Source: an uncultured Cetobacterium sp.
Lineage (GTDB): Bacteria > Fusobacteriota > Fusobacteriia > Fusobacteriales > Fusobacteriaceae
Assembly: GCF_947038635.1 (NCBI RefSeq)
Contig: NZ_CAMQXC010000004.1
Location: 1 to 52,581, forward strand
Length of the DNA: 52,581 bases
Direction of reading: 5' to 3'
Under the pieces are notes generated by a model. It worked only from the letters and a program-made list of their open reading frames with translations. It was not told the DNA's origin and made no database searches. Numbering within the stretch: the first letter of the stretch is position 1; every line of letters starts with the position of its first letter. This document shows, one piece after another, positions 7,618-43,566 of this stretch. A program made the position numbers and the translations under genes.

Positions 7618-8448
7618 TTATTTGTATTTTTTATTTAATGCCTTTATAATAGCAAAAGTTTCAAGGTCAAAAACACCATCAACTTTTCTAGGTCTAAAGT
7701 GCATTTGGAATGCAGAAACCACTTTTTTACTTTGTAAATCCCAATTATCAGTTGAATTAATATCATATCCATATTTACGTAATTCATCTTTTAAATCTTT
7801 AATTGAATATGAATTAAAAAGATCTTGTGAATAAAAAGTATTAAAATCTTTTTTCTCAAACCAAGCACCAACACCATAATGATCATAAAGGTGTTTCCAT
7901 GGGAATTTTGGACCAGGATCAAACTTTCTAGTAGGAGCAATATCAGAATGTCCTAAAATATATTTAGGATTAATCTTATATTTAGTAGTAAGTTCTCTTA
8001 ATAACATTCCAATTTTAAAAACTTGGGCATCGTTATAGGGATAAAACATAGCTGTGTCAACAATTCCCTCTTTTAAATTTGCTGTTTTTTGTTTGCTAGC
8101 ACTTGAATAACCTAAATTAGAGATTTCAATTCCAATTGAATTATCGTTTAGATTTTTGTAGCCATCAAAGGAACTAGTTCCAGCATGCCAAGCCCTTTGA
8201 GTATCGGGTACTAAAGAGTAAACAGAATCATACCTTTCTTGGGTAACTAAATAATGAGAACTAACATTATTTTTTGTTAAGGCAGTGATTGAACGTTCAT
8301 CATTTAAAGCAGTGTAGTGTAAAATAACAAACCGAACTCTTTCGTTATAAGATTTTGATTTGTATTTAGACGAATTAACACTGTATTTTAGCGATGTGCA
8401 CGAAGATAAAACAAGGGTTAAAAGCAAAAAAACTATTTTTTTAATCAT
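7618..8448 (-). CDS. N-acetylmuramoyl-L-alanine amidase lipoprotein (Amidase_2 plus PG-binding domain, AmiD-like)
   Basis: Predicted to cleave the MurNAc-L-Ala bond of peptidoglycan or anhydro-muropeptides, anchored at the envelope. It has a type II signal peptide with lipobox LSSC (Cys about 17). The Amidase_2 domain (about 38-190) has the first zinc His in VILHYTALND (about 44), a GIEISN segment with a catalytic-region Glu, and GHSDIAPTRKFDPGPKFPW with the remaining ligands. A C-terminal peptidoglycan-binding domain follows (LRKYGYDIN..AFQMHF, about 215-276). This order matches E. coli AmiD. It is transcribed alone, just upstream of the rib promoter. Confidence 0.92.
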   Translation of the reverse strand: MIKKIVFLLLTLVLSSCTSLKYSVNSSKYKSKSYNERVRFVILHYTALNDERSITALTKNNVSSHYLVTQERYDSVYSLVPDTQRAWHAGTSSFDGYKNLNDNSIGIEISNLGYSSASKQKTANLKEGIVDTAMFYPYNDAQVFKIGMLLRELTTKYKINPKYILGHSDIAPTRKFDPGPKFPWKHLYDHYGVGAWFEKKDFNTFYSQDLFNSYSIKDLKDELRKYGYDINSTDNWDLQSKKVVSAFQMHFRPRKVDGVFDLETFAIIKALNKKYK

Positions 8449-42246: not shown

Positions 42247-42275
42247 TTGCATAAATTTTTTATTTATAGTATACT
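42247..42275 (+). promoter_or_regulatory. Promoter of the leader RNA and M14-type enzyme gene
   Basis: TTGCAT (42247-42252) and TATACT (42270-42275) with a 17-base spacer. Transcription would begin near 42282, 200 bases before the coding start, leaving a long structured leader. Confidence 0.7.
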
Positions 42276-42281
42276 CCTTCT

Positions 42282-42448
42282 AACAATAGAAGAGAGGTTA
42301 GTTCACTTCCATAAAAGGAGCCTAAGGCCGACGGCGATGATCTTTATGACCCTGTGAATTAAGTATTGTGACGCTGCCATAACAATACGCTTATTAGTTT
42401 ATAATTAAGTTCTCGAAGGCATACCAATTTAGGTATGTCTTTTTCTTT
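42282..42448 (+). ncRNA. Structured leader RNA ending in a terminator, candidate riboswitch of unassigned class
   Basis: TTAGTTCAC (42298-42306) pairs with GTGAATTAA (42354-42362), with one G-U. Inside it CATAAA (42310-42315) pairs with TTTATG (42343-42348), closing a GC-rich core AGGAGCCTAAGGCCGACGG and GCGATGATC. Next, GTATTGT (42363-42369) and ACAATAC (42382-42388) form a perfect stem around loop GACGCTGCCATA. GGCATACC (42418-42425) and GGTATGTC (42432-42439) then form a terminator hairpin followed by T-rich sequence. The compact GC-rich core in AT-rich surroundings suggests selection. I compared it from memory with FMN, lysine, M-box, Mn, SAM-I, fluoride, guanidine and c-di-GMP types and found no match. 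Confidence 0.6.
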
Positions 42449-42480
42449 TGGGGTAGACATTAAAATTTGGGAGGATATAA

Positions 42481-43566
42481 ATGTCAAAAACTTTTTTATT
42501 AACTTTTTTATCATTGAGTGCATTAGTATTTGCTAAAACTGAGTACAATGGAGAAAAATATCTAGGGAAAGGTGTAATAACAAATCTAGATGTAGAGGAT
42601 TTGGAGAATGGAAAAATATATGAATTTTTCTTTGAAGGAACAGAGAATAGCTTAGGAAATCCATGGTATATTCCTGTTACAGTAATTAAAGGAGAAAAAC
42701 CTGGTAAGAAATTTTTAATTAATTCAGGTGTTCATGGAAATGAATTGAATCCTATTTTAACTACTTATAAGATAAAAGAGAAATTAAAACCACAAGATTT
42801 AAAGGGAACAATAACAATAGTTCATGGAATGAATATACCTGGATTGTTAAATAATAATAGAGGCTATACATTTGGAGGAGGATCTGAAAGTACGTCAGAT
42901 TTAAATAGACAAATGGACTCAGGAAAAACAGCAACTTCAGATCAAAAATATTCAACATTACTTTGGAATAATTTACTATCAAAAAATGCAGATAAAGTAA
43001 TTGATTTACATACAAGTGGAAAAGGAAGCAAATTTCCATTATTTGTTTATGCTGATTTTAGAAATTCTGATATTAAAAAGATGGCAGAATTAACAAGAGC
43101 AGATATTGTAAAAATGGACAATGGAGAAAAGGGTTCTGTAGAAACATCATTTGTGGAATTGGGAATTCCGAGCATTACTTTTGAATTAGGATCTTCAGAA
43201 ACACAAGAAGCTTTGATAGTAGAAAGAGCAACAAATGGAGTTATAAATAATCTTATTTATTGGGATAATTTAAGTGGAAAAAAAATAACACCAGAGATAG
43301 AGACATTTTATGGAAATTCATGGAGTCGTATTCGAGCGGAAAAAGGTGGTTTTGTAGAGACGAAAGTTAATGTGATGGATAAGGTAAAAAAAGGGGATAT
43401 TTTATTTATTCAATACGATGCTTTTGGAAAAGTTTTAAAAAATTATGAAGCACCAAATGATGGAGTAGTAGCAAGTATAAAAGATTATCCTTTTAGTGAA
43501 CCAGGAGATTCTTTAGGAAGAGTTATAGAATATGATTCAAAAGATAAAGATCAAATTTTAAAATAA
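42481..43566 (+). CDS. Exported succinylglutamate desuccinylase/aspartoacylase-like zinc enzyme (M14 fold)
   Basis: A 361-residue protein with a type I signal peptide (about 1-18, ending VFA), so periplasmic. The zinc-carboxypeptidase-like site is visible: His85 and Glu88 in NSGVHGNELNP, His177 in VIDLHTSGKGS, and the likely catalytic Glu235 in ITFELGSSE. The C-terminal part (about 275-361) is a barrel-like domain with VKKGDILFIQYD. The AstE/AspA family hydrolyses N-acyl amino acids or small amides, but most are cytoplasmic; export suggests action on an envelope or imported amide. GGGAGG precedes the ATG, downstream of the structured leader. Confidence 0.85.
   Translation: MSKTFLLTFLSLSALVFAKTEYNGEKYLGKGVITNLDVEDLENGKIYEFFFEGTENSLGNPWYIPVTVIKGEKPGKKFLINSGVHGNELNPILTTYKIKEKLKPQDLKGTITIVHGMNIPGLLNNNRGYTFGGGSESTSDLNRQMDSGKTATSDQKYSTLLWNNLLSKNADKVIDLHTSGKGSKFPLFVYADFRNSDIKKMAELTRADIVKMDNGEKGSVETSFVELGIPSITFELGSSETQEALIVERATNGVINNLIYWDNLSGKKITPEIETFYGNSWSRIRAEKGGFVETKVNVMDKVKKGDILFIQYDAFGKVLKNYEAPNDGVVASIKDYPFSEPGDSLGRVIEYDSKDKDQILK

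Follow-up and report, generated by a model that had tools for sequence, protein, structure and literature searches.

Lysine riboswitches (L box, RF00168) sense an amino acid, contain a multi-helix junction and lie before genes of amino-acid transport and synthesis. The leader RNA described here shares with them the multi-helix junction and a place before transport and synthesis genes of apparent amino-acid metabolism but is not matched by the RF00168 covariance model, and lysine riboswitches occur separately from it in all 12 Cetobacterium genomes. T-box leaders (RF00230) are likewise terminator leaders on amino-acid genes, including arginine genes in C. difficile (excerpts of PMC11477304). 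The RF00230 model, however, leaves the new leader unmatched and detected no T-box in the 12 Cetobacterium genomes (control 5/14). According to the portion of PMC11109978 that describes it, the trpB motif is an orphan candidate of Firmicutes and Fusobacteria that is linked to trpB, comprises at least two hairpins and numbers over 900 members; it precedes amino-acid ABC transporters and carries a terminator. The new RNA also has a terminator, occurs in Fusobacteriota and lies near putative amino-acid transport genes; compared with that text description, it differs in its four-way junction, its association with argH, YfcC and YjiH and its confinement to Fusobacteriaceae. Finally, the mRNA of fungal arginase resembles it as a proposed case of arginine sensing by mRNA but is eukaryotic, and the support for its arginine response is called insufficient in the relevant passage of a 2022 review (PMC10043782).

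Glycine, lysine and glutamine are the proteinogenic amino acids with riboswitches named in the abstract of PMC5584792; arginine would join them if the reading given below is correct. The term 'arginine riboswitch' was met in one paper, on magnesium chelation, and the titles on riboswitches or arginine in Fusobacteria or Cetobacterium included none reporting this RNA, subscription journals and preprints lying outside this scope. Such a motif is unmentioned in the main-text passages covered of the two genome-wide surveys likeliest to have met it, PMC11109978 and PMC8632094, the latter of which took in Fusobacteria.

We analysed a window of 52,581 nucleotides from an uncultured Cetobacterium sp. 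(contig NZ_CAMQXC010000004.1) together with related leaders from other genomes. The best reading of these sequence comparisons is a new riboswitch class of Fusobacteriaceae that would sense arginine or a near relative and terminate transcription at high ligand. To the narrower statement of a new class that binds L-arginine and is switched OFF by termination, for which we infer the ligand, the sign and the antiterminator, we give slightly less than an even chance.

A covarying leader RNA ahead of an intrinsic terminator

A sequence-only reading of the window had described an unassigned terminator-type leader with a 9-pair and a 6-pair helix, a 7-pair stem with a 12-base loop and a terminator, all of which are present where it had placed them (Table 1). 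RNAalifold, applied to an alignment of 25 leaders made by sequence only (A1), arranged the RNA into P1, P2, P2a, P2b, P3 and P4, a tight four-way junction with zero unpaired bases between its four helices; P1 and P4 had been missed in the earlier inventory of helices.

Table 1. Coordinates of features in the window
Feature	Position	Strand	Basis
Promoter TTGCAT, 17 bp, TATACT	42247..42275	+	Sequence; stronger counterparts before 33/45 copies
-10 TATACT	42270-42275	+	Sequence
P1 5' strand GAGG	42294..42297	+	RNAalifold on A1; partner TCTC 42411-42414
P1 3' strand TCTC	42411..42414	+	RNAalifold on A1; sequence
P2, 9 bp, TTAGTTCAC with GTGAATTAA	42298-42306 with 42354-42362	+	4/9 pairs with double changes, A1
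P2a, 6 bp	42310-42315 with 42343-42348	+	5/6 pairs with double changes, A1
Conserved core GAGCCTAAGGCCGACGGCG, including P2b (42320-42322 with 42333-42335)	42318..42336	+	CCTAAGGC in 36/36 distinct copies; one compensated pair in P2b, A1
P3 hairpin; stem of 7 bp (42363-42369/42382-42388), 12-nt loop GACGCTGCCATA (42370-42381)	42363..42388	+	4/7 stem pairs with double changes, A1; GCTGCCATA in 36/36 distinct copies
P4, variable loop	42389..42410 (42389-42392 with 42407-42410)	+	1/4 pairs with double changes, 98.0% paired, A1
Intrinsic terminator, 5' arm GAAGGCATACC; stem 42415-42442, then T-tract	42415..42448	+	Terminator in 37/38 leaders
Shine-Dalgarno-like GGGAGG	42469..42474	+	Sequence
AstE/AspA-like enzyme, 361 aa, start codon at 42481	42481..43566	+	Pfam AstE_AspA_cat, 97.4 bits
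FMN riboswitch, Rfam RF00050	7427-7556	-	99.5 bits

In A1, 98.5% of the 824 cells belonging to the 33 pairs were paired, compared to 35-45% when the partners were slid. Double changes occurred in 15 of the 33 pairs (shuffle mean 6.7), and the covariation score reached 0.262, versus 0.140 for shuffles and 0.033-0.060 for slides. The count of further pair types did not exceed that of shuffles, 96 of 500 of which reached the A1 value. P1 was paired in 99.0% of its cells with three of its four pairs invariant, which is too little variation for a test on A1. When 47 matches (36 distinct rows) were aligned to the covariance model built from A1 (R1), 96.5% of the cells were paired and 21 pairs showed double changes; this alignment is biased towards structure, and a few of the loci overlap. 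When the 36 distinct sequences were aligned by sequence alone, RNAalifold recovered P2b and P3 only; the eight second-type yjiH copies on their own folded into P2, P2a, P2b and P3, with P1 and P4 missing. Both CCUAAGGC and GCUGCCAUA were present in 36/36 distinct copies, and 31 columns were invariant.

Single-sequence folding of 42282-42460 was not clearly beyond chance (z = -1.64, 13 of 200 shuffles being equal or better) and the aptamer part alone gave z = -0.26 for fold stability. Stability of one sequence was therefore rejected as proof, both values being non-significant, and the leader is judged real because of the comparison across copies and not of folding energy. At the level of aligned sequences, this comparison shows a conserved, covarying RNA structure that is followed in the 5' leaders by an intrinsic terminator and precedes five gene families, several of which are linked to arginine. 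Two hallmarks of a riboswitch were thus found: a covarying structure in the 5' leaders of functionally related genes, and a terminator placed as expression platform downstream of the aptamer (37/38 leaders). The covariation looked for upstream of related genes has accordingly materialized, and the suspicion that this might be a mere untranslated leader fails.

As to known families, the scan with Rfam 15 returned zero families at gathering score in the window leader and six other loci bearing copies, in keeping with the earlier statement that the leader is unassigned. A relaxed threshold yielded weak matches only, the best of them scoring 28.1 bits where gathering requires 80, and a known Rfam family was rejected. 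A further rival explanation takes the leader for a T-box, an attenuator working through a leader peptide or an inert untranslated stretch, and argG in the same family seems, by eye, to be attenuated by a leader peptide. The longest complete open reading frame of the window leader, however, encodes MIFMTL (frames were computed for the window leader and the other copies judged by eye), no T-box was found in the 12 genomes, the leader is unmatched by the T-box model, and the double changes in A1 speak against an inert leader. A leader peptide in this RNA and T-box identity were both rejected, and we consider this explanation highly improbable and largely refuted. That the RNA does not sense a metabolite directly but serves as the target of a protein or another trans factor is quite improbable in our view: comparison alone cannot separate the two, but the size, the junction, the invariant loop and core and the multi-family amino-acid regulon would be typical of metabolite aptamers.

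The promoter claimed for the window stands in its -10 element and 17-bp spacer, less so in its -35 element, as TTGCAT agrees with the consensus at three of six positions and a consensus promoter scan omits the site. It is probably genuine but weak, since 33 of the 45 copies have their best promoter match, of 10-12/12, at the equivalent place upstream (end of the -10 element 41-52 bases before CCTAAGGC). The window copy and 11 others are without such a match there. In the yfcC type the promoter, read by eye as TTGACA, 18 bp, TATACT, would start the transcript near P2a, so that this type may do without P1 and the base of P2.

Distribution and downstream genes

The R1 search, which used strict filters and may miss weak copies, located 45 copies, up to five per genome, among 98 Fusobacteriota genomes, 17 of which carry the RNA. 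All were confined to Fusobacteriaceae and to 4 of 29 genera, namely Cetobacterium (12/12 genomes) and three others (2/2, 2/7 and 1/3). A DNA search of the 61 genomes of the family likewise gave related leaders in 17. A pattern scan of genome contigs, requiring the exact core letters so that diverged relatives elsewhere could escape, returned 18 loci: 12 in Cetobacterium, one in an uncultured member of Fusobacteriaceae and five unrelated (Mesorhizobium, two Flavobacterium, a Bdellovibrionia bacterium and Ruminococcus). The last five were not recovered by R1, and a spread outside the family was rejected. Viral contigs contained one pattern locus, without an R1 match at the place of the pattern. 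One copy lies before a YjiH-annotated gene on a Cetobacterium somerae plasmid (NZ_CP092520, 704,842 bases). Diverged forms of the RNA before yjiH in relatives lacking it, or before argG, were rejected as no credible match was obtained. In one genus, five of seven genomes lack the RNA, and their yjiH seemingly follows right behind another gene (L157-L161, from G035, G030, G032, G031 and G029), while G033 and G034 carry the RNA before yjiH; the switch may have been gained or lost within this genus.

Assigned by downstream open reading frames and sequence, the copies precede first-type yjiH (14/45), an AstE-like gene (9), an NhaC-type transporter gene (8), second-type yjiH (8), yfcC (4, two of which show the gene start only, then the contig end) and, directly, argH (1); one is at a contig end. 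Five gene families are thus found downstream, the AstE-like enzyme, the NhaC-type transporter, YfcC and two YjiH types, and the earlier description of the leader as controlling the AstE-like enzyme proved too narrow.

In eight genomes the coordinates place argH downstream of the RNA, either as the next gene or with the NhaC-type gene in between. It lies elsewhere, without the RNA, in G001, G033 and G034 (3 of the 17 RNA-bearing genomes and 3 of the 11 with argH over cut-off). G007, 67% complete, has no argH over cut-off, and five further RNA-bearing genomes (G002, G008, G011, G012 and G013) have neither argH nor argG over cut-off; in all five the RNA still precedes yjiH, and in two it precedes the AstE-like gene as well. 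The window's own genome, at 94% completeness, has argH and no argG over cut-off, which may be a gap. In G009, yfcC, the NhaC-type gene and argH follow one another in a row (L124 10768-12617, - strand) that carries two RNA copies, the first upstream of yfcC and the second upstream of the NhaC-type gene and argH.

The argH product scored 603.6 bits with its family model, over cut-off, and YfcC 742.6 bits with the model 'putative basic amino acid antiporter' (cut-off 500). The NhaC-type protein had below-cut-off matches to Tet(35), NhaC and ArcD, and YjiH a match to the Pfam Gate domain plus one below-cut-off match only. Behind some yjiH copies lies an ABC binding protein, nearest to a lysine/arginine/ornithine model below cut-off; some yjiH copies have methionine-type or 2-oxoacid-related genes nearby. 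The specificities of the three transporter types, YjiH, YfcC and NhaC-type, are putative. The AstE-like enzyme gave weak DoeB-like matches in NCBIfam and PDB, and its N-terminus resembles a signal peptide by eye. A tenth close relative of it, in G002, is in two pieces with stops inside one and has no RNA match nearby.

Terminator and antiterminator partners

A script found the terminator in 37 of 38 leaders, the stem of L039 having a mismatch. RGCRUAC is the sequence of its 5' arm in all of the 37 but L035, L038 and L061, hence in 34. When transcripts were folded up to the terminator loop, the arm paired with the P3 loop in all eight second-type yjiH leaders (ACGCU with AGCGU, most pairs at p about 0.9-1.0) and an antiterminator with the core GCCU formed in the three yfcC leaders (p 0.99-1.0). 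In the other 26 leaders it was weak, local or different: two NhaC leaders (L043, L044) paired the arm with the 3' side of P2a (p 0.6-0.9), and in most first-type leaders and the window it was weak or absent. For the window, an antiterminator can be drawn by eye (42417-42419/42351-42353 and 42420-42423/42345-42348), which is absent from the computed fold. A single conserved partner was not found; the partner differs between copy types.

The contact suggested earlier, between the loop sequence GCUGCC and either the GGC of the core or the GGCA of the terminator arm, remains plausible but is only weakly favored statistically. The median loop-arm duplex energy was -6.5 for 22 distinct combinations, versus -4.6 for 102 control arms (chosen with similar arms left out) and a mean of -3.3 for shuffled arms; 20% of the control arms attain -6.5. 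Judged by these folding models, the antiterminator appears to be the weakest step of the proposal.

A second, AT-rich hairpin, CAGAAATTT...AAATTTCTG, lies between terminator and start codon in first-type yjiH leaders (L052, L049, L051 and others), where it abuts a GGAGG Shine-Dalgarno by eye and is possibly a translational layer.

Arginine context, candidate ligand and proposed switch

The guess of an amino-acid ligand made from the window fits the regulon and could be narrowed, from genes outside the view of that reading, to arginine metabolism. Three genomes without the RNA (G052, G053 and G058) have yjiH in one operon with argG, argH and ABC transport genes for amino acids, joined in G053 by argF. 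The repressor ArgR was found in none of the 61 genomes (control 9/14). SAM riboswitches, like those for lysine, occur in 12/12 Cetobacterium genomes separately from the new RNA, and lysine and SAM were therefore rejected as ligands. Against the arginine reading count the methionine- and 2-oxoacid-type genes near some yjiH copies, the argH genes without RNA and the close AstE relative of G002 without RNA.

That the five genomes with neither argG nor argH over cut-off retain the RNA before yjiH, and in two cases before the AstE-like gene, suggests that it senses a nutrient and not a made intermediate. The same RNA and logic with citrulline, ornithine, argininosuccinate, an acyl-arginine or a polyamine as ligand is an unlikely alternative, to which the context of argH, argG and argF, the AstE/DoeB-like deacylase downstream and the ornithine-type matches among the transporters would all lend themselves, while those five genomes disfavor argininosuccinate, taken as an intermediate made by the cell, and leave citrulline and ornithine as candidates.

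The substrates of NhaC-type proteins are diverse. This leaves room for another ligand (another amino acid, a methionine-related metabolite or Na+) or for an arginine ON switch, as do the methionine-type genes near some yjiH copies and an antiterminator that is weak, local or different in 26 leaders; passages of a T-box paper list NhaC with Tyr (PMC2494555). We hold this, too, to be unlikely. Another ligand or an ON switch is opposed by argH and the arginine operon context, and another ligand by the separate SAM and lysine riboswitches. An ON switch would have no deiminase catabolism to switch on, as arcA was over cut-off in 0/61 genomes with four weak matches, by a search whose control was positive in 3/14 only and over cut-off in one. 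On the same count we rejected the idea that argH is there to serve catabolism by arginine deiminase.

With L-arginine as the preferred ligand, the genes of import and synthesis downstream are most simply explained by an OFF switch, and the ligand should favor termination because the candidate partners of the arm lie inside the aptamer. With ligand bound, P2b and the P3 loop would stay in their aptamer conformation, leaving the terminator free to form, and plentiful arginine would turn off the genes of import, salvage and synthesis. Without ligand, the 5' arm of the terminator would pair with aptamer sequence, which according to the copy would be the P3 loop, the core GCCU or the 3' side of P2a, and the polymerase would continue into the gene. 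In the window, the RNA would control the exported AstE-like enzyme, which perhaps releases arginine or a related compound from its acylated forms. That this is the first natural bacterial L-arginine riboswitch class, a termination switch coordinating arginine import and salvage with the final step of its synthesis in a lineage where ArgR was not found, has in our estimate an even chance of being right. An RNA class with an arginine-linked regulon and no ArgR found reduces natural RNA arginine sensing to a binding test. A positive outcome would suggest functions for the poorly characterised YjiH, YfcC and NhaC-type transporters and for the exported AstE-like enzyme.

In relatives, the operon of a binding protein and argG is preceded by a short open reading frame with its own Shine-Dalgarno, then a terminator (seen in L175-L177). 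These frames lie at about 8200-8303 (- strand) in L175, from 5673 in L176, from 1841 in L177 and at about 6690 (- strand) in L178, and three of the four have several Arg codons at their start by eye; Arg makes up 5 of 33 residues in L175, and L176 has one. The argG leaders look like classical Arg-codon attenuation, which would be a second RNA-level control by arginine.
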